Shown: piece by piece, positions 1,237 through 30,822 of the stretch | Position numbering within the stretch: the stretch's first letter is position 1 | How the letters are laid out: each line of letters begins with the position of its first letter | Origin: an uncultured bacterium | GTDB lineage: Bacteria > Verrucomicrobiota > Kiritimatiellia > PWTM01 | DNA: 58,890 nt | Assembly (NCBI GenBank): GCA_938010045.1 | Contig: CALLFZ010000035.1 | Coordinates: 1 to 58,890, forward strand | Direction of reading: 5' to 3' | Position numbers and translations under genes: made by a program | The notes under the pieces: generated by a model | Seen by the model: the letters and a program-made list of their open reading frames with translations, nothing else | The model's database searches: none | What the model was told of the DNA's origin: nothing

Positions 1237-2220
1237 ATGCTGGAAGAGATGCGTGCGGCACTTCAGGCAGGCTGGGCGGTGGCGGCGGCGACGCGACGCG
1301 AAATGGCCCGCCAGCCGCTCACGCTGTTGCTGACCACCACGGCGGTGGTCGGCTGTGCGCTGATACCGCTGCTCACCACGCACACGTTGGACGAGGGAGA
1401 AAAAATCGTCGCCGACAGCGTGCTGGCGCTGCACCTGTTTCTTGGCATGTGGCTGGCGGGCACATCGGCCTGTCACTCGTTCACGAGCGAGTTACGGCGG
1501 GGTACCGCCGCGACGGTGCTGAGCAAACCGGTGGGCCGCGCGACATTTTTCCTCGGCAAGTTCGTGGGACTGGCAGCGGGAATGCTGATGTTTTCCCTCA
1601 CGGCGGCGCCCGCGACGATCATGGCGGCGCGCGTGGTCTCGGTGCCGTTCTTCTGGGATTGGGGTGTCGAACTACCGCTGTTGTTGTCGGTTCCGGTCGC
1701 GTGGATGCTGGCGGCGGCGTGGAACTTCTTCACGCGACGGCCGTTTGTGGCCGATGCGGGCGTGCTGCTCACCGCGTCGGTGTGGGTTGCCCTCTGGATC
1801 GGCGGAGGCCGTCCGCGGGAGGGAATCGCGCCGGCGTACGTTGGCCAGTTCTATTCGTTGCCGATGGTCGGCGCGAACGCTCTGATTGCGATCGCCCTGC
1901 TCCTGCTGGCGGCGATTGCGCTGGCCCTGGCGACGAGGTTCGAGGTGGTGGCGACGACGTCGCTCACGGCGGGAGTGTTTCTGGCGGGTCTCATGAGCGA
2001 TTACCTGTTCGGACGTCTCGCCGCCACGCGGTGGTGGGCGGCGATCGCATATTCACTGCTTCCGAATTGGCAGCATTTCTGGATGGCGGATGCGGTGAAT
2101 CTCGGCGTGCCCGTGCCGCTTCGCTATCTGGCGGGGGTTGGCGCTTATGCGGCACTGTACTTGATGGGCGTTCTCGCGATCGGTACGTTGATGTTTCGGT
2201 CAGCGGAAGTGAAGTCGTGA
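1237..2220 (+). CDS. ABC-2-type transporter permease-like membrane protein
   Basis: The 327-residue protein has about six hydrophobic segments and resembles the permease subunit of ABC-2 exporters. The segment LSKPVGRATFFLGKFVG matches the coupling region of that family. No ATP-binding subunit is encoded beside it, so it may borrow one or not work as a classical ABC transporter. The ATG at 1237 was chosen because it precedes a typical amphipathic N-terminus. A GTG at 1201 is also in frame, and neither start has a strong ribosome-binding site. The stop overlaps the start of the next gene (TGATG), so translation is probably coupled. It is the first gene of the operon of three SPFH proteins and a metal ATPase. 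Its substrate is unknown. Confidence 0.72.
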   Translation: MLEEMRAALQAGWAVAAATRREMARQPLTLLLTTTAVVGCALIPLLTTHTLDEGEKIVADSVLALHLFLGMWLAGTSACHSFTSELRRGTAATVLSKPVGRATFFLGKFVGLAAGMLMFSLTAAPATIMAARVVSVPFFWDWGVELPLLLSVPVAWMLAAAWNFFTRRPFVADAGVLLTASVWVALWIGGGRPREGIAPAYVGQFYSLPMVGANALIAIALLLLAAIALALATRFEVVATTSLTAGVFLAGLMSDYLFGRLAATRWWAAIAYSLLPNWQHFWMADAVNLGVPVPLRYLAGVGAYAALYLMGVLAIGTLMFRSAEVKS

Positions 2221-4100
2221 TGCAACGATCCGGTGAACGCGTCGCGCTGGCGGGAGCGCTGCTGGGCCTTGTCGCCGCGGTGATCGCGTCAACGGAAGGA
2301 TGGGAGGGCGCCGGTCTCGCCGCGCTGCATCTTTGGGCGGCCGCGACCTGCGCGGTGGTGGCGGCGAGGGCGTATTTCGCGCGTCGCGCGCGTGAGGAAG
2401 CGGAAGACATCCGGCGGGCGCGCGCCGAGCCATCTCCGACGCTGTTCGAGGAGGGGGGCGGGGATACCCTCGCACCGATGGGCCGCAGTGCTGCGGCGTT
2501 CGAGCGTTGGGTGGTGCCGTGGGTCGCGCCGCTGCTCGGGGCGGCGGCGCTGGCGGTGGCGGTCCGGGGCTGGCGGTCCACCGGAGGTGCGGCGGCGGAG
2601 GAGCTGGCGGCGACGCTGGCGCCGGCCGCGCGCCACGGCGCCACCGCGTTCGTGCTGCTGGTGGCGGCGCGCTACCTGCTTTCGTCGGCACGGCAGGCGG
2701 GGAATGAGCTGCTGCGGGGGGCGGGCGCGGCGCTTGGGGCGGCGGCGTTCGGAACGGCGCTGGTAACGGCCGGCGCGCTAGGGCGGCGGGCGGGTTTCGA
2801 ATCGGCGGAGGCGATCGGTCGGGCGGCGCTGGCGATCTGGACCGGCGTGCTGGGCGCCGAACAAGTGATTCGGGCGCTGCTGGAGCTGTATCGGCCGCGT
2901 CGCCCCGACGAGTCGCCCCCCGCGCCGTACGAAAGCGCGTTGACCGTGCGCCTTTTCGATCCCGCCTCGTGGTGGCGCGCGGCGGCGGAGTCGGTGGATT
3001 ACCAGTTCGGGTTCGAGTTTTCCCGCACGCAAGCCGCCCGGCGTATCGCGCGCGCGCTCGTGCCGTATCTCGTGGTGCAGGCGGCAGTGCTGTACGGCTG
3101 GACGTGCGTGACGATTTTGGGGCCGGATGAGGAGGGCGTGCGCGAGCGGTTCGGACGGCCGGTGGCGGGGCCGGCGGGCCATCTGGGGCCGGGATGGCAC
3201 TGGACCTGGCCGTGGCCGTTCGAAACGGTTCGGCGGGCGCCGGCTCGGCGCGTGCTTCATGTCTCGGTGGGTTTCGAAGGCGATGATGAGGTGCTGCCCG
3301 AGCTGCTCTGGAGCCGTCCGCACTATCGGCGGGAGGACCTGTTCCTGAGCGCGGTACGATCCGGGTCGGGCGGGGCGACGTCGTCCGTCGCACCGGTCAG
3401 CGTGCTTTCGATCAACCTGCCGATCGAATATCGCGTCACGAACGTCGCGCGGTATGTGTATGGAGCGGCGGATCCCACCGCGGTCCTGCGGGCGATGGTC
3501 AATCGGGCGCTCACGGCGGAGCTGGCGGGGCGCGACGTGTGGGAGGTGCTGGGGCCGGGACAGGCAGAATTCGGGCAGTCCTTGGTGGGTCGGATCCGAC
3601 GTGACGTCGGGCGGCTGGATCTCGGCGTCGAGGTGACATTCGTCGGGCTGCGCGGCGCGCATCCTCCGGTCGAGGTTGCCGAGGCGTTCGAGGACGTGGT
3701 GGCGGCGATCGAGCGGCGCGAGGCGGCGGTGCTGAAGGCGAAGGGCGATGTGGCGCGGATCGAAGCGGATGCGGCGGCGTCCGCGCGGGCTCGCCGTACC
3801 GCCGCGGAGGCGGCGCGTGATCGGCGCGTGGCCGTGGCGGCGGCGGAGGCGGACCGGTTCCGCTCGCGTCGAAAGGCCGCCGTAGCGAGCCCCTTGGTGT
3901 ATTCGGGGCGGGCTGCGCTCGACGCGGTGCGAGCGGCGCTGGCCCGGCCGCGGCTGTACCTCGTGGCGACGTCCGCGGATCGCGAGGTGGTGCAGTTGAA
4001 TCTCGAACCGAAGGTGGCATCGGTGCTGTGGGACATCGGCGTGCTGACGAATCGCGGCGCGGCGGCCGAGGCGGAACGCACCCAGGAGAGCGGACGATGA
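2220..4100 (+). CDS. HflK-like SPFH protein with multispan N-terminal domain
   Basis: The 626-residue protein is about 200 residues longer than ordinary HflK. The first ~300 residues contain about six hydrophobic segments separated by charged linkers (including RAREEAEDIRRARAE). The C-terminal half is an SPFH/band-7 domain, with the family signature GVRERFGRPVAGP followed by LGPGWHWTWPWPFE at the membrane exit. An Ala/Arg/Glu-rich coiled coil follows, near residues 500-560. SPFH proteins form large membrane-attached cages or microdomains that control proteases and transporters. The ATG at 2220 overlaps the previous stop. The next gene starts inside this stop (ATGA at 4097). It acts in the inner membrane. 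Whether it pairs with FtsH, as HflKC does, cannot be told. Confidence 0.85.
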   Translation: MQRSGERVALAGALLGLVAAVIASTEGWEGAGLAALHLWAAATCAVVAARAYFARRAREEAEDIRRARAEPSPTLFEEGGGDTLAPMGRSAAAFERWVVPWVAPLLGAAALAVAVRGWRSTGGAAAEELAATLAPAARHGATAFVLLVAARYLLSSARQAGNELLRGAGAALGAAAFGTALVTAGALGRRAGFESAEAIGRAALAIWTGVLGAEQVIRALLELYRPRRPDESPPAPYESALTVRLFDPASWWRAAAESVDYQFGFEFSRTQAARRIARALVPYLVVQAAVLYGWTCVTILGPDEEGVRERFGRPVAGPAGHLGPGWHWTWPWPFETVRRAPARRVLHVSVGFEGDDEVLPELLWSRPHYRREDLFLSAVRSGSGGATSSVAPVSVLSINLPIEYRVTNVARYVYGAADPTAVLRAMVNRALTAELAGRDVWEVLGPGQAEFGQSLVGRIRRDVGRLDLGVEVTFVGLRGAHPPVEVAEAFEDVVAAIERREAAVLKAKGDVARIEADAAASARARRTAAEAARDRRVAVAAAEADRFRSRRKAAVASPLVYSGRAALDAVRAALARPRLYLVATSADREVVQLNLEPKVASVLWDIGVLTNRGAAAEAERTQESGR

Positions 4101-5026
4101 ACTCGGGTACATCGGCGGGAGCGGCCGTGCGTCGGACCCCGGCGGCGCTCATGATCGCCGCCGTCCTACTGCTGCTGCTCACCCAACTGGTCATGGTGGT
4201 GCGCGAGGGAGAGGTCGCGGTGGTGACGACGTTTGGCCGTGTCGCCTCGGCGCCCCGCACGCGCGCGGGGCTCTACCTGCGCTGGCCGTGGCCGATCCAG
4301 ACCGCGCACCGATTCGATGCGCGCGTGCAGGTGCTCGAGGGCGGGCACGAGCAGACGCTCACGCGCGACGGGCGGCCGGTGACGATCGCGCTCTTTGCCA
4401 CCTGGCGCGTCGCGGATCCGGTGCGGTTCCTCGAGCGGGTCGGGACGTTCGAGCGGGCGCGCCGGAACTTGAACGGGCTGCTCGGCCATTGGCGCAACGC
4501 GGTGGTTGGCCGTCACGAGTTCGAGGCGCTTGTGCATCCGGATCCCGCCGCGCTGAAACTCGATGCGATCGAGTCGGCGATCGCCGCGGGGGCTGCGCCC
4601 GAGGCGCGCGAGCGGTACGGCATTGAACTGACGGCGGTCGGCATTCGTGCGCTCGGTCTGCCGCCCGCGATTCTCGAGCGCGTGTTTGAGCGGATGCGCG
4701 CGGAGCGCGCCGCGCTCGCCGAGACCTATCGCGCCCAGGGCGACGCCGAGGCCACGCGGCTGCGCGCGGAGGCCGAAGCGCGGCGCGAGCAGATGCTCGC
4801 GCAGGCTGAGGCCGATGCGCTGCGCCTGCGCGCGGAGGGAGACGCGGCCGCCGCCGAGGCCTACCGCGTGTTCGAGGAGGACCCAGAGCTGGCGCTGTTT
4901 CTCCGCAAACTGCAGGTGTTCGAGCAGACGCTGGGCCGGCGCGCCACGGTGATTCTGGGCACCGAGACCCCGCCCTTCGATCTGCTGTCGGCGCCGCCGA
5001 CCCGCGGGGACGCCCAGCCCAAGTGA
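4097..5026 (+). CDS. HflC-like SPFH membrane protein
   Basis: The 309-residue protein has a single N-terminal membrane anchor (about residues 20-40). An SPFH domain follows, opening with VREGEVAVVTTFGRV and YLRWPWPIQ. A long Ala/Glu/Arg coiled coil (about 205-270, with the HflC-like AETYRAQGDAEATRLRAEAE) and a short tail complete it. The layout and length match HflC. The start is supported by the ribosome-binding site AGGAGAG just upstream and the ATGA overlap with the preceding gene. The next gene begins at a GTG that overlaps this stop. It probably assembles with the flanking SPFH proteins into a hetero-oligomer in the inner membrane. Confidence 0.85.
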   Translation: MNSGTSAGAAVRRTPAALMIAAVLLLLLTQLVMVVREGEVAVVTTFGRVASAPRTRAGLYLRWPWPIQTAHRFDARVQVLEGGHEQTLTRDGRPVTIALFATWRVADPVRFLERVGTFERARRNLNGLLGHWRNAVVGRHEFEALVHPDPAALKLDAIESAIAAGAAPEARERYGIELTAVGIRALGLPPAILERVFERMRAERAALAETYRAQGDAEATRLRAEAEARREQMLAQAEADALRLRAEGDAAAAEAYRVFEEDPELALFLRKLQVFEQTLGRRATVILGTETPPFDLLSAPPTRGDAQPK

Positions 5027-6039
5027 ACAGCGAACCACCAGCCCCGGCGATGCCGCCGACGGCCTCTGCGTGGGCCGATGCGCTGGCGCTCGCGGCACGG
5101 ATCGTGCGCGGTGTGCTGCTGGCTCTGGCGCTGCTCTATGTGGCGTCCGGCGTGCATGTGATCCAGCCCCACGAACGGGCTGTGGTGCGCGTGCTCGGCC
5201 GGCTGCGCGCCGAAGCGTGGGGGCCGGGCGCGCACTGGACGTTGCCGCGGCCATTCGCCGAGGTCCTGCGGCTCGACGCGGCTCGGCTCCGATCGGTGGT
5301 CGTCGGCACCCCGGCGGCGCCGAACGACGCGCCGCGGTCGGACGTGGACCTCTGGCGGGAGGGCGTGCTCACCGCGGGCGCGAACCTTATCCGGGCCCGC
5401 TGGGCGGTGCGGTATGCGATCGAGGACCCCGTGGCGTGGGTGCTTGCAGCGCAGTCGCCGTCCGCCGTGATCTCCAATGAACTGCGCCGGGCGGTGGTGC
5501 GCGCGACGGCGGGGATGGAGCTCGACGCGGTGTTGAGGTCGGAGATCGAAACGCTGCGCGCGCGGATCGAGGATGAGGTGCGGCGGCGCCTGGCGGAGTG
5601 CGGGCTTGGTGTGCGGGTGGAGCGGGCGGAGGCGGTCGAGCTGGCGCCGCCGTTTTCGGTCGCGGCGGCGTTCGAGGACGTGACGCGGGCCGCTCAGGAG
5701 AGCGCGGCGCGGGTGGACGAGGCGCGGCGCGCGGCGGCGCGTCGGCTCAGCGAGGCCGGCGCCGAGGCGGCGCGGCGGCGTGCGGAAGCGGCCGCGGCGC
5801 GGGATCGGGATCTGGCCGCGGTCCGCGCCGACGCGGCGGCGTTTCGGGATCTGTTGCCGCGCGTGCGCGAGAACCGGTGTGTCGTGATGAGCGCCCTCTG
5901 GCAGGACGCGGTGCGGCGCGCGCTGGGCGCCGTCGCGGAGATCTACGTCGTACGGCCCCGAAACGATGGATCGCAGGAACTGCGGCTTTGGCTGGCGCCG
6001 GATCTGCCGGGCGCGGAGAACCATGCAGACGTCCCATAG
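5023..6039 (+). CDS. Third SPFH/HflK-like membrane protein
   Basis: The 338-residue protein has one membrane span at about residues 25-45. An SPFH domain begins with IQPHERAVVRVLGRL and WGPGAHWTLPRPF, and an Ala/Arg-rich coiled coil lies at about 225-275. The GTG start at 5023 overlaps the previous stop by four bases. Its own stop lies 14 bases inside the next gene. It diverges from the other two SPFH proteins, so this is not a recent tandem duplication. Its predicted role is a structural partner in the same membrane assembly. Confidence 0.8.
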   Translation: MNSEPPAPAMPPTASAWADALALAARIVRGVLLALALLYVASGVHVIQPHERAVVRVLGRLRAEAWGPGAHWTLPRPFAEVLRLDAARLRSVVVGTPAAPNDAPRSDVDLWREGVLTAGANLIRARWAVRYAIEDPVAWVLAAQSPSAVISNELRRAVVRATAGMELDAVLRSEIETLRARIEDEVRRRLAECGLGVRVERAEAVELAPPFSVAAAFEDVTRAAQESAARVDEARRAAARRLSEAGAEAARRRAEAAAARDRDLAAVRADAAAFRDLLPRVRENRCVVMSALWQDAVRRALGAVAEIYVVRPRNDGSQELRLWLAPDLPGAENHADVP

Positions 6040-7933
6040 AGCGCATCCGCAGCACAGCGGCGGGGGGGCCGGTCTGCTGGCCTGGGTGATCGTCGCCGTC
6101 GCGTTCGTCGCGGCCGGCTATCTCATCCCCCGGCTTCAACCCGAGAACACCGCCGCCGGCGATGTCGCGGCGGCGCTCGGCGCGGCGATGCTCGCGGTGC
6201 CGATCCTGCGCACCGCGGCGGCCGATCTTTTGGCCGGTCATCTGCACATGGACGGCCTCGTGGCGATCGCGGTGCTCGCGGCGCTGGCCCGCGGGGACCC
6301 GAGATCGGCCGGTGTGATCGCCGGTCTGATGTTGCTGTCGACCGTGATCGAAACTCGGACCGCGGCCGGCGCGCATCGCGCGATCGAGGGGCTTGTGCGG
6401 CTGGCGCCGACGGTGGCGCGCCGCCGCCGCGCGGAGGGGGAGGAGGAGGAGGTACCCGCGCATGAATTGCGCGTGGGCGACCGCATTTTGCTGCGCCCCG
6501 GAGACCTGGTGCCCGCCGACGGCCGGATTGTCTCCGGCCGCACTGCGGTGCAGGAGTCAACGATCACCGGCGAGCCCTTGCCCGTGGACAAGGCCGAGGG
6601 CGACGAAGTGTTCGCGGGAACGCAGAACGTCACCGGCGCGGTTGAGGTCGAGGTCACACGCGTAGGTCCGGACACCACACTGGGGCGTGTGCGCGAACTG
6701 ATTCTGCAGGCCGAGCGCACCCGGCTGCCGTTTGCGATGTTGATTGACCGCTACGTTGGCCACTACGCCCCATTGGTGCTCGCGGTCGCGGCGTTGACAT
6801 GGTTTTTCACCGACGATGGGGACCGCGTCGTGGCGATGCTCGTGTTTGCATGTCCCTGCGCACTGGTGTTGGCCACGCCGACGGCGATGGTCGCGGCGCT
6901 GGCCGCGGCCGCGCGTTCGGGCATTCTCGTGCGGCACGTGGCGCATCTCGAGGCGGTGGGCCGAACGGACGCGGTGGTCTTCGACAAGACGGGCACACTG
7001 ACCGCCGGCGAGCCCGAGGTGGCACGGCTGGCCCCGGTGCCGGGCGTGGCGCCCTCAGAGCTGCTGGCCGCCGCGGCGGCGGCGGAGCGCGGCAGCCAGC
7101 ATCCGGTGGCGTTGGCGATCCAACGGCTTGCGCGCGAGGCGGGTGTGGTGGTGCCCGAGGCGGGCGAATGCCTCGAAGAAGCTGGCCGCGGGGTGCGCGC
7201 GCGGGTGGAGGGGCGGGAAGTCCTGTGTGGACGCGCGGATTGGCTGCGCGAGGCGGGTGTGGCGGGCGTGGACGAGGGCGAGCCGACGGCCGCGAGGCAT
7301 TTGAGTGTGGTGCATGTCGCGGTGGACGGCCGCTACCTCGGATGGATCGGGCTCGAAGATCGAATTCGACCAACCGCGCGCGAGGCGGTGCGGCGGCTTC
7401 GCGAGCTCGGGATTCGCCGCGTGGCCATGGTCACCGGCGACCGCGAGCGGGCGGCGCGCAAAGTCGCGGAGACGATTGAATGCGGCGAGGTGCAGGCCGG
7501 GTGTCTGCCCGAAGGGAAGGTCGAGTTCGTGCGCCGCCTGCGCGGGGAGGGCCACCGGGTGGCGGTCGTTGGTGACGGCGTGAACGACGCGCCCGCGCTG
7601 GCCGCGGGCGACACTGGCATCGCGATGGGCGCCGCCGGCAGCGACGTGGCTCTACATACGGCGGCGATCGCGCTGATGGCCGATGATCTGCGGCGCGTGC
7701 CCCACCTGATTGCGCTGTCCCGGGCAGCCGTGCGCGTGGTCGCGCAGAACATCGCGGTCGGCGTGGTCTTCATCGTTGGCGGCATCGCGTTGGCCGGCGC
7801 AGGCCGCGTGCCGCCGATTCTCGCTGCGCTGCTCCACAACGTCGGCTCGCTGATCGTTGTGTTCAACAGCGGCCGCCTGATGCGGTTCGGCGAAGGGGGG
7901 ACGTCGCCCACGGCCGGCGTGGGCAGTCACTGA
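6023..7933 (+). CDS. P1B-type heavy-metal-translocating ATPase
   Basis: This 636-residue cation pump couples ATP hydrolysis to metal transport across the inner membrane. Visible motifs are the actuator TGEP (about 182-185), the transmembrane CPC metal site (277-279), the phosphorylation motif DKTGT (Asp321), the HP dipeptide of the nucleotide domain (360-361), and GDGVND (517-522). No N-terminal heavy-metal-binding domain is present; the N-terminus is short with only a few His. The last transmembrane segment reads HNVGSLIVVFN, which does not match the copper or zinc signatures I know, so the metal is undetermined. The ATG at 6023 has GGAGA upstream and overlaps the SPFH gene by 17 bases, which suggests co-regulation. 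It converges on the next gene with a 7-base overlap. Confidence 0.93.
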   Translation: MQTSHRAHPQHSGGGAGLLAWVIVAVAFVAAGYLIPRLQPENTAAGDVAAALGAAMLAVPILRTAAADLLAGHLHMDGLVAIAVLAALARGDPRSAGVIAGLMLLSTVIETRTAAGAHRAIEGLVRLAPTVARRRRAEGEEEEVPAHELRVGDRILLRPGDLVPADGRIVSGRTAVQESTITGEPLPVDKAEGDEVFAGTQNVTGAVEVEVTRVGPDTTLGRVRELILQAERTRLPFAMLIDRYVGHYAPLVLAVAALTWFFTDDGDRVVAMLVFACPCALVLATPTAMVAALAAAARSGILVRHVAHLEAVGRTDAVVFDKTGTLTAGEPEVARLAPVPGVAPSELLAAAAAAERGSQHPVALAIQRLAREAGVVVPEAGECLEEAGRGVRARVEGREVLCGRADWLREAGVAGVDEGEPTAARHLSVVHVAVDGRYLGWIGLEDRIRPTAREAVRRLRELGIRRVAMVTGDRERAARKVAETIECGEVQAGCLPEGKVEFVRRLRGEGHRVAVVGDGVNDAPALAAGDTGIAMGAAGSDVALHTAAIALMADDLRRVPHLIALSRAAVRVVAQNIAVGVVFIVGGIALAGAGRVPPILAALLHNVGSLIVVFNSGRLMRFGEGGTSPTAGVGSH

Positions 7934-10546: not shown

Positions 10547-11602
10547 TCAATCGAACCGACCGGGGCCCGAGCGGGCGCGGTACCGACGGGCGGTGATCGC
10601 CGAGACGGCGCCGAGCAGCGCGAGCAGGACCGTCTGCGGCTCCGGAATCCCGGTGACGCTGTCAATCCAGTTGGAGTAGGCGGGCACGTGGATGCCGCCG
10701 AGGCCCGAGCCGAAGCTGGGCGCGTTCGTGGTGTCCATGTCGAACGTGAAGGTGTTCACACTCACGATCTTCGGAATCGCGCCGTCCCAGATGAATCCGG
10801 GCCCTCCGGAGTCGCCGCCGCCGAGGGTCGTCTCGAGCCGATTGCCGACCGTCACGCCGCCCACAAAACCCCCATTGATTCCGTCGGGCCAGTCGAAGTC
10901 GCCGTACCAAACCTCAAAGACCGGGTTTGTGCCCTCGTCGTCCCAGTTCCAGATGCCGTCGACGTAGTTTGTGCCCGACCGCTTCACGACGAAACTGGGG
11001 CTGACGGTGTAGCCGATGTCGCCGTATCCTGACGCTCCATAACCGACGATGGTGATGGCCGTCTGATACACGAGCGATTTGCGGACAATGTCATAGATCG
11101 GCACGCCGGAGGGCAGCGGCGAGGCGAGCTCCACAATCGCGATATCGTCATTGAGATTGATTGTGTGGCCATGGTAGGCCGGGTGCAGGTACAGCGTCGA
11201 GGCAGTGACGATGTGGCTGGGGCTGTCGCCGTAGTTGAGCCAGAACTGCACATTGGATGGTGTTGTGTCCGGCACGCCATCGCCGTTGATGTCGAGCACA
11301 TGCGCGGCGGTCAGAATATGGCTCGGCGTCAAGGGTGTGCCGGTTCCGATGTAGGTGCTGGCGCCGACTTGTACGCGAACGCTGCCGACGCCCGCGTACG
11401 GTGAGGCGGTAGTGTTCGGATCCACGCGCGTCGCCGGCGACTCCGCGGGCGACACGTGGGAGCTGCCCGCGACCACCATGAGGTTCACGAGACCCGCGTC
11501 CCCCGGGACGCGCTGCACCAGGGACGTGCCGGCCGGAGAGGACACGGCGATGGCAAGAGAAACCAACGCCCCGGTCACCATTCGGGTGGGCAATCGCGTC
11601 AT
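10547..11602 (-). CDS. Trypsin-like serine protease with PEP-CTERM anchor
   Basis: This 351-residue exported protease has a signal peptide at residues 1-25 and a chymotrypsin-fold domain. The catalytic triad is visible as His101 (LTAAH), Asp153 (DDIAIVEL) and Ser265 (GGGDSGGP). The C-terminus is a PEP-CTERM sorting signal: PEP at 320-322, a hydrophobic segment, then an Arg-rich end. This predicts processing by an exosortase and surface or outer-membrane display. The start overlaps the stop of the upstream DUF6807 gene (ATGA), so the two are probably co-translated. An Asp/Gly stretch (DINGDGVPD, about 104-112) resembles a calcium loop. Its target is unknown. Confidence 0.9.
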   Translation of the reverse strand: MTRLPTRMVTGALVSLAIAVSSPAGTSLVQRVPGDAGLVNLMVVAGSSHVSPAESPATRVDPNTTASPYAGVGSVRVQVGASTYIGTGTPLTPSHILTAAHVLDINGDGVPDTTPSNVQFWLNYGDSPSHIVTASTLYLHPAYHGHTINLNDDIAIVELASPLPSGVPIYDIVRKSLVYQTAITIVGYGASGYGDIGYTVSPSFVVKRSGTNYVDGIWNWDDEGTNPVFEVWYGDFDWPDGINGGFVGGVTVGNRLETTLGGGDSGGPGFIWDGAIPKIVSVNTFTFDMDTTNAPSFGSGLGGIHVPAYSNWIDSVTGIPEPQTVLLALLGAVSAITARRYRARSGPGRFD

Positions 11603-13821: not shown

Positions 13822-16800
13822 ATGAACAGAATGAGGGGATGGTCGCTACGTTCGTGGGTTATTGCGATTGCAGGGACACTCGCGATGACAGGTGCGGTTC
13901 GTGCGCAGGTCACCGGATATTGGGCCACGACGTTTGGCGGTGAATGGAATGTCACGGCCCGATGGAGCAACAACGTCATCCCGAACGCCGTCGGCGATTG
14001 GGCGTGGCTCACTGGCAACAACAACCTAGGCGGAGGTTTTGGCGGCACGCCGACGATCACCCAGAACATGGACGTCACACTCGGTTACGTATTTCTGGGG
14101 GACGTCGACCGCGGCACCGCGATCCGATGGCATGGCGATCCAGGGCGGACGCTGACGTTCAACACGAGCTCCGGCAGCGACGGCATCCGAGCGTTGCTGT
14201 CGAAAGGCTCCGGAGACCTCCACCAACCCGGTGTCGCGGGCAAACATTTCAACATCGGCAACGACGGCGACTGGATGAACGTCGGGATCCGCGTGGACGA
14301 CCCGGATGGGCTCTACATCGAGAACTTTTACAACCTAACTCTCCTCGGCGGCAACACAAACTCCCGTGCACTGGACGCGCAAGGGCGCGATATCGTCAAG
14401 GCGGAGGATGGCCTATTGACGATCACCCGCGTCGTAACAAATGTGAATAATTTCTACGTTCGCGACGGTCGCGTGATCGTGCAGCTCGAAGGCAACACGG
14501 GCGCTAACACGATCTATGCGACCCGGCCGGACATCACGAACATCGTCATCGGCGTTGCGCCCGGCGTGCTGGATCACGGCGAGTGGCACCCGCTGAACGT
14601 CCAGACCAACATCGGCGAGGGCACCGCGCAGGATCGCTATCAGGTGCCGTACTTCCAGATCACCGGCGACAATGACACGAACGCTACCGCATCCCCGTAT
14701 CTTCATCCGTACAACGTCACACTGAACCGCGGCTCTTTCCGAACGTTTTCGCGCCCTCTCCTTGCCGATCAGGCGAATTGGACGAACCACATCGCGGTGT
14801 ACACCGGCACCTGGACGCTCAACGGCGACGCGCGCGAAATCCAGATCTATAACGAGGTTCAAGACAATGGGAGTCTGACCAGTAACGTGCGCCAGCAGGT
14901 GTGGTCCGGCACGTTGACCGGCCCGGGCGGTTTCACCAAGGCCGGCTCGTCTGAAATGACGTTAATTGGCACGAACGACTTTCAGGGGGCCATTATCGCG
15001 ACTCGCGAGTTCGACCGTGGCCGCGGCCGGTACGGCTCGATCGGTCTGCGCATGGGCGGCATCTTGACCGATTCGGAGGGTATTCGTTTCGACCGAATCG
15101 GGAGCATTTATCTCGACAACAAGGACGTGAATATCAACGACCGCTTGCCCGATGACTTCTACGTCGTCAACCGAAACTGGGGACGCTTCGAGATCCGTGG
15201 GAACCCGACGGAGTCGACGACCGAGACCATCGGCTCGGTGACGAATCTCGGCGGCACTCTCTTCCTGGTGATGGATCTCGATGACGCACAGGCTCAGTCC
15301 ATGACGCTCAACCTCGGCAGTCTGGTCCGCACTTCGGGTTCGATTGTGCAGATCCACGTTAAGGACGTTCTTCAGGGGGCGCTGCACACCAATGCGGGCG
15401 CTGTCGCGACGGTGAATCTACTCGATGGTGGGGCGTCGCTCCAACAAGTAGGGGGCGGTGGAGGAGTTGGCGCGGTGAACCGGTCGCTCGCGCTCGGCGT
15501 GTTTGGCGGCGATGCATCCGATATCAGCTTCCACGATAATCCCAACGTCGATCCGCTGGCGCTCAATCCGACGCGCGCGGACCAGTTCATGACGGTGGAC
15601 AACGGCCGTTTGCGGACGCTGCGCGACGACGAGATGGTCCACCTCGGCGATCGGCAGACCAACTTCCTTGCGATCACTCAGGCCGACGCCGCGACCGACG
15701 CCAACGTCAACCTCGCGTACCGCGCCACGGTCGTTTACCTCAACACTTCGACCAACGGTCCGTCCGGTTCGCTGAACATGATCAAGAACCGCATCCTCGG
15801 CGACGTGACGTGGAATGCCCTGCGTACCGGTATTGCAACCAATGAGGGCACAACCGCCGCCAATCAGTATGGCGCGGCCGTGCTACTCGACCACGGAGCG
15901 CGGCTGACGCTCGAGTCGGGCATGCTGCTGGCTGGGCGCGATACTCGGAGCAGTCGCGGTGATGACGCAGCGGGGATCGACGTTTGGCTCGCGCGGGGCA
16001 TACTGGATCTGGACGGTACCAACAACAACCGAGAAGCCATCATTCAAGTGGCGAATGGGCATGCGCTGTATGTACTCAGTCGGATCGAAGCTCGCAACGG
16101 GCTAACCAAGGGCGGGGAAAACAGCCTGGTGCTCCAGGGGGCGAATGCGATCAGCGGCACGGTGTCCGTCACGCGAGGCGGCTTGTATCTGCGCCATCCC
16201 GAGGCGCTCGGCGGCGCGACACAGGTGGTGCTCTCTGCGGATGGTGCGCTCCGTCTTCAGTTTGGCGGTTCGTTCAACGCGGCGGATTTGGCCCCTCAGG
16301 CACAAATCTCTCAACGGGCGTTTTTATATTCAGAGTCTTCTGTCCACAATCAGTGGAACGGGCGCATCATTCTGAACAACGTGGATGAGGCGGGAACTCT
16401 CTACCATCCCGATATGGCGATTGTGGTCGGCGAAAATGCTCAGAACGCGGTGTTGACGCTGGCCGGCGACATTGCGGCCGATAGCGCGAGTGCGTCGTCC
16501 GATATCGTCCTCTACGATCCGGTCCGGCTCACCACTGGCTCTTCAGGCGGCATTCTGAACCTCAAAGGTCGGGTCGGGGACCGGTTCGTGAACGGCGTCG
16601 CGATGCCGATCGATCCCGCCGGCGCGACGTACAATCGGGTACACGCCGGTGACATCACCAACCGCATCGCGAGCGAAAACTCGGCCCTGCGGTTCCGAAT
16701 TGACGGCCCCTCGCTCAGCAACTTCGGCGACGAGCTGGCGGTTCACATCTATCGTCCTTGGCGCGCGACGGGCCGCATCTACGCTGAGCAGGGCACGATC

Positions 16801-19800
16801 CGTTTCCTCGGCGATCCCGCGGCCGGCGAAGGCGAGTTCTGGGATCCGATCGCCCTGACCAACGCCAATTTTGCAAATGGGATGAGTGGGTTCCAACTCG
16901 GCGGCCCCGGTACCGACGCCGGCGGCAGCGTGACGCTCCTCTTGACGCGGGACGGACAGGTTTTCAATGCGGAGCGATGGACCGCCGCAACCGATAACAC
17001 CAACAACACCGTCACGATCGGATTGGAGCACTTCGGCGCCAACAATGCCACCGTTACCATCGGCAATACGTATAACGATGGGAGTCCCGCGGGGGAGGAC
17101 AACCGGATCACGATGGATCGTGCCGTGCGATTTTTCGCCCATAACGGTTACGATTCCGCCTCGGGTATGGAAAGCACCGGCCGCGTCAACATTGTGCAAA
17201 CACTGCGCGGCAACGTTGCCTCCCGGTTCGTAAAGGTCGGCAGCGGGCAGGTGTGGCTGCAAGGGCCCGACAATGCTTCGTACAGCGAGGGCAACGACAT
17301 CTCCGGCTTTGTGCTGCTGGGCGGCGAGCTAGTGCTTGATCGTAGCCCCGGCTCGTCGGCCAATCTTAGTCATCGCCGCACGCGCGACAACGGAGCGCAA
17401 TTGGTCCTCGCCGGCGGGGATCTAACGTTCCATGGCAGCGCCAATAGTAGTTTTGCGACAGAATTACTCAACAGCAACCTCCTCGTCCGCCCCGGCGAAT
17501 CCGTGATTCGCGTCCGTCCGGCCGGACCCACTCAGTCCAACCTCCTGCATGTGGCCAACTTTGCCGGCTCCACGGTCACCCGCCAGACGGGCGGCACCGT
17601 CCACATGATCTTCGATACGGAACTGGGCGGAGGCGCGGGCTTGCTCTTCGGCCAGACGCCCAATAGCCGCATCGGATCGTGGGCCGTGTTCAGCAGCAAT
17701 ACGACCTATGAATCGCTCACGTGGGCGAAGACGCAAATCGGCAGTGTCTACGTCGAGCCGTTTACGGGGTACACCATCGATTTCTATGGAGCGGCTTCGT
17801 ATCATACAGAGGTTCGCGACGGCACGCCAAGCCTGAATCCTTCCGAGATCGTCGGGTCGCTTCGGTTCGACACGAACCTGTATGTCAATCTTGATCTCGG
17901 CGGCAGCGAGCTGAACATCGCTGACGGTGGGATTTTGGTGACCCGCGGTTCGGGAGACGGTTTCGGCGGCCCGCAGGGCATTGCCAACGGCACCCTTGGA
18001 AGCCAGTCGGGCGAACTGATTATTCACAACTACGCGCCCTACGGATTCAACATCTCGGCGGCGATCACCGGCCCCGTCCACCTGACCCATTCCGGCATTT
18101 CGACCACGTACCTCTCGAGCGCGAACACGTTCGGCGGGCGCGTGTATCACGTCGGTGGCGTGTTGCCGGTGAACTCGCTCTCGCAGTTGGGTGCCTTCAC
18201 CGCCGCGGGAACGAACACCATCGCCCTGCTGGGGGGCGTGCTCCAAGTGACCGACAATCTCAACTTCTTGGCTAACACCGTCGAGGTCGGCGGCGATGGA
18301 GGCCGAATCTGGGTTGCCGCCGACCGAGCCGCAACATTCGGAGGAAGGATCCTGTCGGAACCCAACTTCTTCCCCTCGACGACCCCCCTCCAGAACAACG
18401 GCCACGGCGATCTGATCAAGACCGGTCCCGGCGCACTGGTCATCGCGGGGCACTCGAACGTCGTGAACTCCATCCAGGGCTTGATTGACATCCGGCAGGG
18501 CTCGATCGTCATTAACCGTCCGGCCAACACCAACGACGTTCTATTCGGCACCAGCCACTCGTACTACGACGGGATCGTGATTCGCAATGGCGGCTCGCTG
18601 GTCATCAGCAATCTCCCGTTTTGGACGGGGAGTGCTCGCATTACGACGGACATCCGCGACTGGCTGACGCTCGAACAGGGATCCAGGCTCGAGGTCTGGG
18701 ACCGTGATACCACAAGCTATCAGACCTGGCGATGGAATGCGCCGATTCATTTTGCCGGCGATGCCACGATCTACGTGAGCGGAGACGAATTGAACATCAA
18801 TCCGGATGCCGGCTACCTGGAGGGCTCCGGAAACCTAATCAAGGAGGGGGACGGTCGGCTCACTATCTTTGGTTTCAGCCCCGACTATACCGGTGCCATC
18901 GTTCTGCAGGACGGCTATCTCGATATCAATGTCATCCACCAGAACCTTCTACCGAACGTTTCGAAGTACGTGATCGGCTACAGCGCGAACGAGAACCGCG
19001 GGATAGTAAACTTGAACGTGCGGCCGGAACGCGGGAACGTCGTGGCTGAAACAGTAATATCGCAGAAGATTGAGGTGCTGGGCGAGAGCGATGACACCGC
19101 GATTGGGTTGTTCCGGCCGGACCACAATGACTCGGTTCGGTTTACCGGCGACATTGACCTCGTCGGATTCGACACGTACAACAACCTTCGCGAGTTTCGC
19201 TTGAAACGGTGGGAAGAGAACGTGTCGGGCGGCCGCCAACTCGAAGGCGGCGACTCGTTCGATGAGAGGTCTTTCATCTGGCTGGAAGGCAGCATCATCG
19301 GCACCAACAAGCGCATCCGCACGCTTGTTCAGCAAAGCTACTCGCCGAATAACTTGCCGAACACGATGAACAACCCGACCAACCTACAAATGAAAGCGGT
19401 GTGGACGTTCAGTGGTACGAATGACACCTGGCTTGGTACGCTCGAGCTCGGCAATCGCCAGGGAACAGATGCTACGTGGCAGGGCCAGGACTCGGACAAG
19501 GAGCACTACGTCCGCTTCGGCCGCAACGACGGCAACCCGACGCCCGCGATTTCGTCGAATGTGGTCGTCGTGCTGCGCCACGATGCGCACCTCCAGGCCT
19601 TCGGCAGCCAGGTGACGATCGGGACCCTGTTCACGGACGGCAGAGCCAATAACGTCACGGTGGACTATTTTGGCAGCGATTTGACAACCAACTCGTTCAT
19701 CGAGAACGCGGGCACGCAGCCCGGTAGTTTCCGGATCTGCCAGTTCACGAACGCGACGATCTCGGCGACGATTCGCGACGGAACCTACTGGTCGCCAACC

Positions 19801-20508
19801 GAGAAAGATCAGCCCGCCGCCGCGCTCAGCATCTACAAGGATGGCCCGGCGACGCTGACCTTGCTGGCGAGCAACTCGTTCAGCGGGCTGGCTCGTGTGA
19901 TGAGCGGGACTCTGGCCTTGTCCGGTACCGGCTCGATCCGGAATGCCCACACGATCCAGATCGACGCGGGCGCGACATTGGACGCCACGCCGCGGACGGA
20001 TGGCACCCTGTCGCTGGCGGCGGGCCAGACGCTGCAGGGCCACGGCACGGTCAACGGCGGTCTGATCGCAGAAGCCGGTTCGTTCGTGAAACCCGGCACC
20101 AGCCCGGGCACGCTGACGGTCACCGGAGACGTGACGTTCGAGAGCGGCTCGACGTTCGAAGTCGAATTGCTCGGCACGCTGTCCGGTCAGTGGGACCAGA
20201 TCCTGATGACGGGCGTGTACGAGGTGACACTCAACGGCGCGACGCTGTCCGTGCTGGCGCCCAATCCGCTGACGATCGGCTACGTGTTCCCGATCATCGA
20301 GAACTGGGGATCGATCGATTCGAGCACATTTAGCGGCCTGCCCGACGGCACGACGTTCGTGGCCGGGGCGAATACGTTCCAGATCAATTACGGTACATTG
20401 CCGGGATACGCCAACGACGTGACGCTGACGGTGATCCCGGAACCCTCGACGTTGGGGCTTGTGGGTATGATCGTGGCGGCGGTGCTGCTGCGGCGGCGGC
20501 TGCGCTGA
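13822..20508 (+). CDS. Giant PEP-CTERM protein with autotransporter beta-strand repeats
   Basis: The 2,228-residue exported protein starts with a signal peptide (about 1-29, cleaved after VRA). Most of it is predicted beta-solenoid rich in Gly, Asn and Thr. At least six segments match the autotransporter-associated beta strand repeat, a KxGxGxLxLxGxNxxxG pattern. Examples are TKAGSSEMTLIGTNDFQG (near 14940), TKGGENSLVLQGANAISG (near 16100), IKEGDGRLTIFGF (near 18840) and YKDGPATLTLLASNSFSG (near 19835). It lacks an autotransporter beta-barrel and instead ends in a PEP-CTERM tail (IPEPSTLGLVGMIVAAVLL then RRRLR). It is probably a surface adhesin or sheath protein sorted by exosortase. The ATG at 13822 has GGAGAG upstream. 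The gene is a single transcription unit with its own promoter and terminator. Confidence 0.92.
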   Translation: MNRMRGWSLRSWVIAIAGTLAMTGAVRAQVTGYWATTFGGEWNVTARWSNNVIPNAVGDWAWLTGNNNLGGGFGGTPTITQNMDVTLGYVFLGDVDRGTAIRWHGDPGRTLTFNTSSGSDGIRALLSKGSGDLHQPGVAGKHFNIGNDGDWMNVGIRVDDPDGLYIENFYNLTLLGGNTNSRALDAQGRDIVKAEDGLLTITRVVTNVNNFYVRDGRVIVQLEGNTGANTIYATRPDITNIVIGVAPGVLDHGEWHPLNVQTNIGEGTAQDRYQVPYFQITGDNDTNATASPYLHPYNVTLNRGSFRTFSRPLLADQANWTNHIAVYTGTWTLNGDAREIQIYNEVQDNGSLTSNVRQQVWSGTLTGPGGFTKAGSSEMTLIGTNDFQGAIIATREFDRGRGRYGSIGLRMGGILTDSEGIRFDRIGSIYLDNKDVNINDRLPDDFYVVNRNWGRFEIRGNPTESTTETIGSVTNLGGTLFLVMDLDDAQAQSMTLNLGSLVRTSGSIVQIHVKDVLQGALHTNAGAVATVNLLDGGASLQQVGGGGGVGAVNRSLALGVFGGDASDISFHDNPNVDPLALNPTRADQFMTVDNGRLRTLRDDEMVHLGDRQTNFLAITQADAATDANVNLAYRATVVYLNTSTNGPSGSLNMIKNRILGDVTWNALRTGIATNEGTTAANQYGAAVLLDHGARLTLESGMLLAGRDTRSSRGDDAAGIDVWLARGILDLDGTNNNREAIIQVANGHALYVLSRIEARNGLTKGGENSLVLQGANAISGTVSVTRGGLYLRHPEALGGATQVVLSADGALRLQFGGSFNAADLAPQAQISQRAFLYSESSVHNQWNGRIILNNVDEAGTLYHPDMAIVVGENAQNAVLTLAGDIAADSASASSDIVLYDPVRLTTGSSGGILNLKGRVGDRFVNGVAMPIDPAGATYNRVHAGDITNRIASENSALRFRIDGPSLSNFGDELAVHIYRPWRATGRIYAEQGTIRFLGDPAAGEGEFWDPIALTNANFANGMSGFQLGGPGTDAGGSVTLLLTRDGQVFNAERWTAATDNTNNTVTIGLEHFGANNATVTIGNTYNDGSPAGEDNRITMDRAVRFFAHNGYDSASGMESTGRVNIVQTLRGNVASRFVKVGSGQVWLQGPDNASYSEGNDISGFVLLGGELVLDRSPGSSANLSHRRTRDNGAQLVLAGGDLTFHGSANSSFATELLNSNLLVRPGESVIRVRPAGPTQSNLLHVANFAGSTVTRQTGGTVHMIFDTELGGGAGLLFGQTPNSRIGSWAVFSSNTTYESLTWAKTQIGSVYVEPFTGYTIDFYGAASYHTEVRDGTPSLNPSEIVGSLRFDTNLYVNLDLGGSELNIADGGILVTRGSGDGFGGPQGIANGTLGSQSGELIIHNYAPYGFNISAAITGPVHLTHSGISTTYLSSANTFGGRVYHVGGVLPVNSLSQLGAFTAAGTNTIALLGGVLQVTDNLNFLANTVEVGGDGGRIWVAADRAATFGGRILSEPNFFPSTTPLQNNGHGDLIKTGPGALVIAGHSNVVNSIQGLIDIRQGSIVINRPANTNDVLFGTSHSYYDGIVIRNGGSLVISNLPFWTGSARITTDIRDWLTLEQGSRLEVWDRDTTSYQTWRWNAPIHFAGDATIYVSGDELNINPDAGYLEGSGNLIKEGDGRLTIFGFSPDYTGAIVLQDGYLDINVIHQNLLPNVSKYVIGYSANENRGIVNLNVRPERGNVVAETVISQKIEVLGESDDTAIGLFRPDHNDSVRFTGDIDLVGFDTYNNLREFRLKRWEENVSGGRQLEGGDSFDERSFIWLEGSIIGTNKRIRTLVQQSYSPNNLPNTMNNPTNLQMKAVWTFSGTNDTWLGTLELGNRQGTDATWQGQDSDKEHYVRFGRNDGNPTPAISSNVVVVLRHDAHLQAFGSQVTIGTLFTDGRANNVTVDYFGSDLTTNSFIENAGTQPGSFRICQFTNATISATIRDGTYWSPTEKDQPAAALSIYKDGPATLTLLASNSFSGLARVMSGTLALSGTGSIRNAHTIQIDAGATLDATPRTDGTLSLAAGQTLQGHGTVNGGLIAEAGSFVKPGTSPGTLTVTGDVTFESGSTFEVELLGTLSGQWDQILMTGVYEVTLNGATLSVLAPNPLTIGYVFPIIENWGSIDSSTFSGLPDGTTFVAGANTFQINYGTLPGYANDVTLTVIPEPSTLGLVGMIVAAVLLRRRLR

Positions 20509-23896: not shown

Positions 23897-24450
23897 GTGC
23901 CTGTCCCCAACCGACCAATCGAAGACAAGGGGACAGACACCGGACAACCCCGCTAGCTCCCACGCATCGCTCCGGCGGCGGAGCGCCGGAGCTGCAACGT
24001 CGCGGCAACCATTCGGCCAGCTTTGCCGGCTGCAGGAGGCGGCGTCGCAGTAGGAGGCGGCGTCGCGGCTCACAGGCTCCGGAGTGGAGGCGCTCGACAT
24101 CGATCGCGGCGCGAAGTGGGGACAGGAAGTGGGGACAGGCACCCGTCAAGACGTCACAGTGGGGAGATTGTTGCGTCGTCTGCGCTTCTGCCGGTCACCA
24201 ATCGGAGGTGGGGAACAGACACCGAAGACCGGCCGAGGCCCAATAGGGATAGCCACCTGGCACCCGCTGGCAACCCCAGGTGTGCCTGTCCAGAGCGCGG
24301 GCTCCTGCCGACCCCATTCGGTTTTCTGCGCCCGCTGCGGCCCTGCGGCGAACATGGTGCCCGTCTCCATGCCGACTCGATGGCGGCTGACGCCCAGTGC
24401 CCGGCCGACCGTACGTGCCTGTCCCCAATTGACCGTACGTGCCTGTCCCC
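23897..24450. repeat. GTGCCTGTCCCC dodecamer cluster 2
   Basis: Exact forward copies lie at 23897-23908, 24415-24426 and 24439-24450. An exact inverted copy lies at 24131-24142. Degenerate copies are at 23929-23940 (GGGGACAGACAC), near 24118 and near 24291. The two copies at 24415 and 24439 form a 24-base tandem repeat with CGTAC before each. Confidence 0.85.
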
Positions 24451-24563: not shown

Positions 24564-24688
24564 AGTATGGTGTGGGGATGGAGTCCCCCCTTGGAACCGC
24601 CTTGAACGGCTGATGACTCCTGCCCGTCCGTGGGACGGCGTGGGTGGTTCGTCGGTCGGATCCCCGGACGGATGGTGTGGAACTCACG

Positions 24689-26509
24689 ATGAACATCACC
24701 GGGGATGTGTTGGACGGAACAGCCTCGCCGCACGGGGTGGACACGATGAATGGGCTGCCGGCACGGGTCGCAACGGATGCGTTCGCGACCGCGGCGGTTC
24801 AATTGCGGGCGTTGGGGGGGGACTTCGAGCCGTTGGCGCGCCGGCTCGAGGACTTGCGTCGCCGTCGCGAGCAGGGCCGGTTTCACCTTGCGGTGCTCGG
24901 CCAGTTCAAGCGGGGGAAAAGCACGTTCCTGAACGCACTGATCGGCGAGCCGGTGCTGCCGACCGCCTCCGTGCCGGTCACCGCGATTCCGACCTTTCTG
25001 CGCCATTCGCCCGAGCGCCGCCTGCGGGTGATGCTGCGCGGCCGGGCCGACCCGATCGAGGCGATTTTCGAGGATTGCGCGGCGCTCCGCGCGGAGCTGG
25101 AGCAGTACGTGACGGAGCGGGGCAATCCGAAGAATCAACGCGACGTCGAATCGGTGGAGGTGAGCCTGCCCTCCGCGCTGCTCGGCCGCGGGGTGGTGCT
25201 CATCGACACGCCGGGCATCGGCTCCACGTTTCGCCACAACACCGAAGCGACGTTGAACTTTCTGCCCCAGTGCGATGCCGCCGTATTCCTCGTCTCGGCC
25301 GACCCACCGATGACCGAGACCGAGGTCGAGTTTTTGAAGCTGGTGCGCGCGCGTGTGGCACGCCTGTTTTTCGTGCTCAACAAGAAAGATTACCTCGATG
25401 ACCAGGAGCTGGCCGATGCGCTCGCGTTTTTCCGCGGCGTTCTGACGGGGCCGGTGGGGCTCTCGGAGCCGCTCGACGTGTTTTGCGTCTCGTCGAAACT
25501 CGCGATCGAGGCGCGGATGCGGGGCGACCCTGCGGCGTGGACTCGTAGTGGCTTGGGCGAGGTGGAGCAGCACCTGACGAACTTCCTCGCCGGCGAGAAA
25601 ACCGCCGTGCTGAACCGCGCGCTGGCGCGTAAAGCCCGGGACGTTCTGTCGGAGGCGGTGATGCGGATCCGGCTGGCGCTCCGTGCGCTCGAGATGCCCA
25701 TCGAGGAGATCGAGCGGCGCCTCAGCGTGTTCGATCGGACCCTCGAGGAGGCACGGCTCCAGCGCCAGATTGCGGCGGATCTGCTCGCGGGCGACCACCG
25801 TCGCTTGCAGGAGGTCATCGAATCGCTGGCCGAGCGGCTTCGGGGTGAGGCCCGCCGCCATTTTGAGGGCGTGCTGGCCGTGGCGCTCACCCGCGACCGC
25901 GAGCGGTTTGGCGAGTCCGAGCTGCGGGCGACGATGGCCGAGGAGGTGCCGGGGTTCTTCGAACATCACGCGGGCCGGATGACCTCCGAAGTGGGCGCGC
26001 GTGTCGCGGAGGCGTTACGCCCCCACCAGCGTCGCGCGGACGAACTGATTGAGAACGTTCGGCGCGCGGCGGCGGAGCTCTTCGAAATTCCGTATCGTGC
26101 GCCGGACAGCGATTCGGCCTTTGAAATCGTCCGCGATCCCTACTGGGAAACGCACCGCTGGTCGAGCACGTTGAGCCCGTTGCCGCCGGGCTGGCTCGAG
26201 GGCCTGATGCCGGCTCGCCTGCGCGAGCGCCGCCGGGCGCGCCGGTGGCGCCATCAAATCGCGGACCTCATCATGGTCAACGTCGAGAACCTGCGCTGGT
26301 CGCTCCGGCAGAGCGTAGACCAAACGGTGCGGCGGTTTGGCTCGGCGCTGGACGAACGTCTGGCCGACACGATCGAGGCCACGCGGGGCGCAATTCGCGC
26401 GGCGCTTGACGAGCGGCGCGCGCGAAGCGAGCTCGTGGCCGCGCAGCGGGAACGTCTGGCTGCGGCGGCCGCGGAGCTGGAACGGATGGCATCGGCGCTG
26501 TCGAGCTGA
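24689..26509 (+). CDS. Dynamin-like large GTPase
   Basis: The 606-residue bacterial dynamin-like protein has G motifs GQFKRGKST (71-79), a Thr-containing switch near VPVTAIPT, DTPG (173-176) and NKKD (231-234). A long helical stalk follows. A moderately hydrophobic stretch around SPLPPGWLEGLMP may touch membrane, and a C-terminal coiled coil is rich in Arg, Glu and Ala. Such proteins remodel or protect membranes using GTP. The start at 24689 is preceded by GTGTGGAACT; an alternative ATG lies at 24746. The antiporter gene follows after 42 bases, so a shared transcript is likely. Many bacterial dynamins occur as pairs; only one is present here. Confidence 0.88.
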   Translation: MNITGDVLDGTASPHGVDTMNGLPARVATDAFATAAVQLRALGGDFEPLARRLEDLRRRREQGRFHLAVLGQFKRGKSTFLNALIGEPVLPTASVPVTAIPTFLRHSPERRLRVMLRGRADPIEAIFEDCAALRAELEQYVTERGNPKNQRDVESVEVSLPSALLGRGVVLIDTPGIGSTFRHNTEATLNFLPQCDAAVFLVSADPPMTETEVEFLKLVRARVARLFFVLNKKDYLDDQELADALAFFRGVLTGPVGLSEPLDVFCVSSKLAIEARMRGDPAAWTRSGLGEVEQHLTNFLAGEKTAVLNRALARKARDVLSEAVMRIRLALRALEMPIEEIERRLSVFDRTLEEARLQRQIAADLLAGDHRRLQEVIESLAERLRGEARRHFEGVLAVALTRDRERFGESELRATMAEEVPGFFEHHAGRMTSEVGARVAEALRPHQRRADELIENVRRAAAELFEIPYRAPDSDSAFEIVRDPYWETHRWSSTLSPLPPGWLEGLMPARLRERRRARRWRHQIADLIMVNVENLRWSLRQSVDQTVRRFGSALDERLADTIEATRGAIRAALDERRARSELVAAQRERLAAAAAELERMASALSS

Positions 26510-30422: not shown

Positions 30423-30822
30423 CGGTCGCGGGCACGCTGCCGCGCACATGGCGCGGGGCGGCGTGCTGTTCGCGGCGCGTGTTCAGCCCAGATCTTGCCG
30501 TTGACTTGTCATTAAAATTGTAAGTTCTTCACGGCGATTCAGTTCCGAAGAACGAACGAATCGCCAACAAGCGAAGAACGAACCATCGCAGCTGCCTGTC
30601 CCCACCCAGGGTCGGCCGAACATCCACGCTTCGCTCCGTCCCCGCCATGTTCTCTGCGTCTCGGAGGTGGTGAAACTAAGGAACCGCCAAGGGTCTGCCC
30701 CCAACCGGCGCATGTCCACAACCGGCGCCAACGATCAGAGGGTGAAACCAGCCTCGGTCTGCCCAAACGCAAAATATGGGTTCAATGTCGGCTTCGAGTT
30801 CGCCGCGGCGGCGCGGCGAGCC
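30423..30822. other. Intergenic region with small inverted and direct repeats
   Basis: There is no gene. GGCGATTC (30533-30540) pairs with 30558-30565, and TTCTTC (30525-30530) pairs with 30547-30552. GAAGAACGAAC is directly repeated at 30547-30557 and 30574-30584. One degenerate dodecamer, CTGCCTGTCCCC, is at 30592-30603. An AT-rich patch (30505-30525) stands out from the GC-rich surroundings. Confidence 0.5.

Follow-up and report, generated by a model that had tools for sequence, protein, structure and literature searches.

Bacterial SPFH proteins are known mainly as the shell of FtsH or as partners of NfeD proteins. In Escherichia coli, HflK and HflC form 24-subunit shells around FtsH (PMC12048511). 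In SPFH-NfeD operons (QmcA-YbbJ and others), SPFH genes are accompanied by a conserved membrane partner, and the survey of SPFH operons in prokaryotes published in 2009 does not mention ATPases (PMC2636767). Human stomatin forms a dome that encloses aquaporin-1 and urea transporter-B (PMC12407830). In the mycobacterial PacL1-CtpC platforms, a scaffold protein is encoded together with a P1B-type ATPase and is required for the stability of this pump in membrane foci; PacL is a DUF1490 protein with a single transmembrane (TM) helix and not an SPFH protein, and its foci exclude the flotillin FloT (PMC9374683). Here we describe an operon for an ABC-2-type permease (PERM), three different SPFH proteins (K1, C, and K3) and a P1B-type ATPase, found in a 58,890-nucleotide stretch of DNA from an uncultured bacterium of the Verrucomicrobiota, class Kiritimatiellia (CALLFZ010000035.1). 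This stretch, referred to as the window, is the entire contig C35 of the source genome (3.2 Mb, 49 contigs, 98% complete). No prior description of SPFH proteins with a P-type ATPase or with a CDF domain, or in the PVC (Planctomycetes-Verrucomicrobia-Chlamydiae) group, was found in the open literature searched.

K1, C, and K3 carry SPFH domains of the HflK/C type as in E. coli, but the operon has three such subunits, one of them with an additional six-TM domain, and its genetic link is to a P1B ATPase, not to FtsH. For the operon we propose an SPFH oligomer that houses a transporter, as in the stomatin dome, although the dome is human, consists of one SPFH protein, faces the cytoplasm, and contains no P-type ATPase. 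With PacL1-CtpC the operon would share a scaffold gene next to a P1B gene; DUF1490 had no match in a Pfam scan of the operon, and the neighbors of the ATPase gene are SPFH and ABC-2 genes only. A conserved membrane partner of SPFH genes is common to the SPFH-NfeD operons, whereas the window operon contains no NfeD gene. We lean slightly toward a dedicated SPFH-P1B machine, in which K1, C, and K3 would assemble into a hetero-oligomer whose client is the P1B ATPase and not FtsH. This reading is based on sequence and structure prediction, namely on gene order, co-inheritance, separate clades, gene fusions, the HflK/C-type fold predicted for K1, and a relocated ABC partner.

The five open reading frames (ORFs) lie on one strand (Table 1), and their translations agree with an earlier note on this DNA. 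The overlaps given there were exact at all four junctions: TGATG at 2218-2222, ATGA at 4097-4100, GTGA at 5023-5026, and 17 bases shared by K3 and the P1B gene (6023-6039). The three SPFH proteins named in the same note were recognized as well, all matching Pfam Band_7 (SPFH-1, E = 4.5e-14; SPFH-2, E = 8.6e-26; SPFH-3, E = 9.8e-15). PERM matched ABC-2 families (PF12679/PF12730), in all cases under the curated cut-offs. As an array of the repeat GTGCCTGTCCCC fills the contig start (about 920 bases), the region upstream of PERM could not be read. Apart from tRNAs, no riboswitch or RNA regulator was found upstream of the operon in ten loci examined.

Table 1. Genes and domains of the SPFH-P1B operon (window positions).
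Feature	Position	Strand	Description
ABC-2-type permease (PERM)	1237..2220	+	327 aa (amino acids), ~7 TM
SPFH-1 (K1)	2217/2220..4100	+	alternative starts GTG 2217 or ATG 2220; 6-TM N-terminal domain, HflK-like SPFH domain 3114-3749, coiled coil
K1 6-TM domain	2220..2891	+	probable degenerate CDF/cation-efflux membrane domain
SPFH-2 (C)	4097..5026	+	HflC-like, single N-terminal TM
SPFH-3 (K3)	5023..6039	+	HflK-like, single N-terminal TM
P1B-type ATPase	6023..7933	+	636 aa, without HMA domain

SPFH-1 was used as the query against 58 relatives, mostly metagenome-assembled genomes, and genes were then called in 20 loci. Any match was found in 32 of the 58, and about 20 matched most of the protein including the membrane domain; in two of the more distant relatives (L059 and L060) the copy has diverged. 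The order ABC-2 permease, HflK-like, HflC-like, HflK-like, P1B ATPase was kept throughout the class, and since relatives with about 25-62% SPFH-1 identity retain it, the operon is more than a chance arrangement. The ATPase gene adjoined the trio wherever the contig extended, in L060 on its upstream side. The contigs of L043 and L046 stop within the operon, and the same genomes hold the HflK-P1B part in L063 and L079. PERM was located upstream of SPFH-1 in 18/20 class loci. No P1B gene was found near the stand-alone hflKC pairs of the class (0/14). In a single case, genes for ZnuA/ZnuC/ZnuB-type zinc uptake (ABC) were located immediately upstream of the operon of one relative (L054:3677-6622).

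In the phylum of the window, the N-terminal membrane domain of K1 was detected in 151 of 388 genomes (~39%). Sixty of these loci were chosen by hand across families and tallied with hidden Markov models built from the earlier loci; owing to contig ends and divergence, the tallies are lower bounds. The SPFH trio was complete in 55/60 loci. Where the contig left room, the P1B gene came next after the trio on the same strand in 50/53, an ABC ATPase gene followed P1B in 41/48, PERM2 belonged to the run in 26/40, and PERM was found upstream in 10/51. A wider scan with a single peptide pattern in one genome per species, which says nothing about absence elsewhere, placed the family in Kiritimatiellae, Lentisphaerae, Verrucomicrobia, Phycisphaerae, one Brocadiaceae bacterium, and Planctomycetaceae. 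The impression of similar clusters in PVC genomes, given in the earlier note, is supported. The note had also stated that the case for a system would fail if the order were unique to this genome or if the SPFH proteins mostly occurred without the ATPase and permease; this refutation failed as regards the ATPase, which does accompany the trio, while the permease does so in just 10/51 of the phylum loci that had room upstream.

A direct connection between pump and SPFH protein was found on contig C31 of the source genome. One ORF of 1004 amino acids (L009:4440-7454) encodes an entire P1B ATPase, then a TM helix, and then an SPFH domain of the HflK-like type, with E1-E2_ATPase, Hydrolase, and Band_7 matches in one protein, and HflC-like and HflK-like genes come after it. 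The source genome contained only two TIGR01525 matches, the operon P1B and this fused P1B, both of them SPFH-linked. P1B-HflK fusions with HflC and HflK genes also occur in relatives, with a length of about 1,100 amino acids in Planctomycetaceae. In a phylogenetic tree of P1B ATPases, those of the operon formed a single clade (100/100). This clade also holds the lone P1Bs of two Phycisphaerae genomes (L108 and L110) whose operons have none. As the fused P1Bs lie outside this clade, the simplest reading of the sequences is that P1B coupling to HflK-type proteins probably arose at least two times independently. The existence of a natural ATPase-HflK fusion argues for physical coupling. A small membrane protein with a weak Rv0361-type match is encoded after the fusion operon in 4/4 genomes of the genus examined (L009:9336-9791 on C31).

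Several observations weigh against a dedicated machine. One genus includes three genomes (L148, L164, and L165) in which K1 had no HflC, K3, or P1B neighbors, and P1B was absent beside the trio in L156, L186, and L195; in the last of these, a Ser/Thr protein kinase of 922 amino acids (L195:12592-15360) occupies the P1B place after K1-C-K3. The P1B of Phycisphaerae is unlinked to the operon. Several operon P1Bs carry CPI, CPV, VPA, or LPC in place of the CPC motif. Finally, FtsH occurs once in the source genome, which lacks a separate hflKC pair, hence the trio could also serve FtsH. The idea that P1B is simply optional, suggested by the Phycisphaerae operons without it, was weakened, as two such genomes hold the operon-clade P1B elsewhere. 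The L112 genome, too, has an unlinked P1B with a high score (L248), which was outside the sampling of the tree.

In all members of the trio, the SPFH/Band_7 domain is preceded by an N-terminal TM helix. SPFH-2 scored 138.1 bits with the hflC model TIGR01932 (cut-off 134.4), while K1 (91.6 bits) and K3 (106.9 bits) were both under the cut-off of the hflK model TIGR01933 (159.4). When 84 SPFH proteins were placed in a maximum-likelihood tree, K1 (96/89), C (100/97), and K3 (100/94) each formed one clade. The three clades span Kiritimatiellota, Lentisphaerota, and Planctomycetota and are separate from the standard HflK/HflC proteins of the class and from the proteins of the fusion loci. The trio was therefore inherited as a set. 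Band_7 was found at eight sites of the source genome, comprising the window trio, a trio on C31, and two differently organized SPFH proteins on C18. The C18 proteins, an adjacent flotillin-like pair with repeated N-terminal segments (L010:5618-9060), were considered as relatives of the trio and rejected, as gene order and domain layout look unrelated.

The ftsH gene of the source genome is a single copy, unlinked to the operon and on another contig, and a separate hflKC pair was not found in this genome; the locus thus differs from the hflKC-ftsH arrangement, as noted before. The trio might nevertheless consist of ordinary HflK/HflC-type modulators of FtsH, with P1B co-transcribed or an FtsH substrate under their control. 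The hflC equivalog score of SPFH-2, the lone FtsH together with the lack of another hflKC pair, and the enclosure of FtsH by HflK/C in E. coli (PMC12048511) would all fit. However, genomes such as G007, G014, G015, G030, and G041 possess a standard hflKC pair besides the trio, the two sets being separate clades, and standard pairs come without P1B. The HflK-P1B fusion is also hard to account for by co-transcription alone, and we regard the reading as ordinary FtsH modulators as improbable.

The multispan domain that had been recognized in K1 is present, and its identity could be refined. In an AlphaFold model of K1 (mean pLDDT 78.6), six long helices and one more TM helix precede the SPFH domain, which leads into a long coiled coil. 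A Foldseek search with this model first returned HflK/C structures, stomatin, erlin, and prohibitin, then other SPFH-type domains, vault protein, FliL, and CDF transporters. The matches to YiiP, ZnT7, and ZnT8 (E = 0.03-0.2) are suggestive and alone not significant. PF01545 was the commonest weak match among 24 K1 homologues (best E = 7.4e-4, in a relative), with a best score of 19.8 bits in a relative against a gathering score of 26.6 bits; K1 of the window had no match. Aligning 114 K1 homologues with 16 CDF proteins in hhalign gave a probability of 79.7 (P = 1.5e-5) over 202 collinear columns, while controls with six other families and reversed profiles did not exceed 3.2. With a small set of K1 N-domains the CDF match was weak (probability 11). 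The metal-binding (D/H)xxxD residues of CDF proteins were not recovered among the 114 sequences, where D, E, or H made up at most 5% in the core TM2/TM5 columns and reached 27% solely at the TM2 edge; a glutamate in TM6 (E214 counted from the ATG, window 2859-2861) was 100% conserved. The domain may share the six-helix fold of CDF transporters (YiiP, ZnT7/8), with which its profile aligns collinearly, but lacks their TM2/TM5 metal residues and cytoplasmic domain and is fused to HflK. We consider it fairly likely that the six-TM domain descends from CDF proteins; transport by it is unlikely.

P1B ATPases have a core of eight TM helices, the end of which is cytoplasmic. Because the extra helix of the fusion protein follows this eight-TM core, its SPFH domain should be located outside, like that of HflK, and because K1 has six TM helices plus one, its SPFH domain should be outside too. 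Both architectures would therefore put the SPFH domain in the periplasm.

The operon ATPase contains E1-E2 ATPase and HAD domains with the motifs DKTGT, TGES/TGEP, and GDGxND. It reached 529.7 bits with TIGR01525 (cut-off 346.25), passed TIGR01512, and stayed below the cut-off of the copper model TIGR01511. In the window, CPC is encoded at 6851-6859, DKTGT from 6983, and the TM8 motif HNVGS at 7835-7849. The P-type core and CPC are shared with sCoaT (7qbz, the nearest solved structure), CopA, and ZntA, and the TM8 histidine is common to HNVGS and the HEGST of sCoaT; unlike these pumps, the window protein has no HMA domain and belongs to an SPFH-linked clade with variable CPC. Among the P1Bs, the catalytic motifs DKTGT and GDGxND were retained, while TM8 varied across those of the operon. 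The window protein and most of its relatives retain CPC. Cys/His-rich N-terminal tails were common in CPC-type P1Bs and mostly lacking where CPC was replaced. A short TM8 peptide, used as a query against solved P1Bs for the type of metal, gave no matches. Where a lineage has both CPC and a His/Cys-rich tail, the substrate would be a transition metal, probably of the zinc type; given the replacements of CPC, transition-metal transport is not universal in the family. As to the term metal pump, used in the earlier note, the metal is uncertain because some lineages have lost CPC.

The altered CPC motifs, the variable TM8, and the tails that are mostly missing along with CPC would also suit a P-type ATPase other than a heavy-metal pump, moving another cation or acting as an ATP-driven regulator within the SPFH patch. 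This proposal is compatible with a dedicated SPFH-P1B machine. It stands against the CPC kept in most relatives, the Cys/His-rich tails of many CPC types, and the TIGR01512 score, and we give it only a slight chance.

PERM had been taken for an orphan ABC permease; it is of the ABC-2 type but no orphan, as its cognate ABC ATPase gene is located elsewhere in the source genome, on contig C10 (L121). A four-gene module PERM-ABC-PERM2-TPR was found class-wide without SPFH genes, with all or nearly all of the module in L122, L124, L125, L127, L136, and L137. In operon genomes, PERM lies beside SPFH-1 and is missing from the ABC-PERM2-TPR sites (6/6 examined; L121, L130, L131, L132, L135, and L140), so that it can be understood as a split-off ABC subunit. 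In G037 (L059/L123) the operon has no PERM, and PERM stays with ABC. In many relatives ABC-PERM2-TPR follows P1B, and all eight genes form one run in L056, L057, L111, L114, and others. A single TM helix and a fold of the TPR type characterize the TPR protein, for which a fold search gave generic TPR matches only. Across the phylum PERM is less constant than P1B, and it is a member of a separate ABC module.

The trio might chiefly scaffold the ABC-2 exporter (PERM, ABC, PERM2, and TPR) for an envelope substrate, with P1B as an accessory. The frequent ABC and PERM2 genes after P1B in the phylum, the move of PERM to K1 in the class, and the Phycisphaerae loci L110, L112, and L115, where the trio occurs with ABC, PERM2, and TPR and P1B is not in the operon, all favor such a scaffold. 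However, no ABC-2 genes were found beside the P1B-HflK fusion loci (L009, L061, L062, and L064), the P1B linkage is at least as tight as that of ABC, and PERM occurs in just 10/51 phylum loci. The ABC module is also widespread in genomes without the trio, and the operon-clade P1B is kept elsewhere in the L108/L110 genomes. An exporter-centered scaffold hence seems rather unlikely.

In the dedicated SPFH-P1B machine, K1 would be anchored by its six-helix CDF-derived domain without the CDF metal residues, a probable in-membrane contact for the pump or nearby lipids. K1, C, and K3 would surround the pump with a periplasmic ring or dome like that of HflK/C, and the pump would expel its cation into the enclosed membrane patch. 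The ABC-2 exporter (PERM, ABC ATPase, PERM2, and the TPR protein) may act jointly with it on the envelope or on cation homeostasis. The complete picture, a new kind of SPFH machinery in PVC bacteria in which a three-part periplasmic enclosure of the HflK/C type with a metal-dead CDF anchor houses P1B, docks the ABC-2 exporter, and receives cations in a closed chamber instead of the open periplasm, with the pump welded to a cage subunit in two lineages, is tentative and on balance doubtful.

The operon is common in the PVC group, which suggests that SPFH cages can serve a pump instead of FtsH. The conserved operon together with the fusions, in which a named pump and a cage subunit share one polypeptide, makes the client testable. 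If true, the transporter-enclosing SPFH dome known for human stomatin would extend to bacteria and provide an SPFH counterpart of the mycobacterial metal efflux platforms, and a CDF transporter fold would have been reused as a structural anchor.

Other features of the window were also recorded. GTGCCTGTCCCC occurs in 42 copies (one mismatch allowed) on both strands, compared to 0.4 expected by chance. The copies cluster at 6-921, 23897-24450, 30592-32837, and 58304-58853, in intergenic regions and at both contig ends, and represent a dispersed repeat, which may have interrupted the assembly. A fluoride riboswitch (crcB motif, 50.3 bits), unrelated to the operon and the only riboswitch found in the window, is located at 24565-24629. 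It lies immediately ahead of the gene of a dynamin-family GTPase (24677-26509), which is no obvious fluoride exporter; the pairing is unusual. A protein of 2207 amino acids (13885-20508) has a weak match to autotransporter passenger repeats and a PEP-CTERM-like C-terminus (PEPSTLGLVG...RRR), and the tail of a trypsin-like protein (10547-11602) resembles this end.
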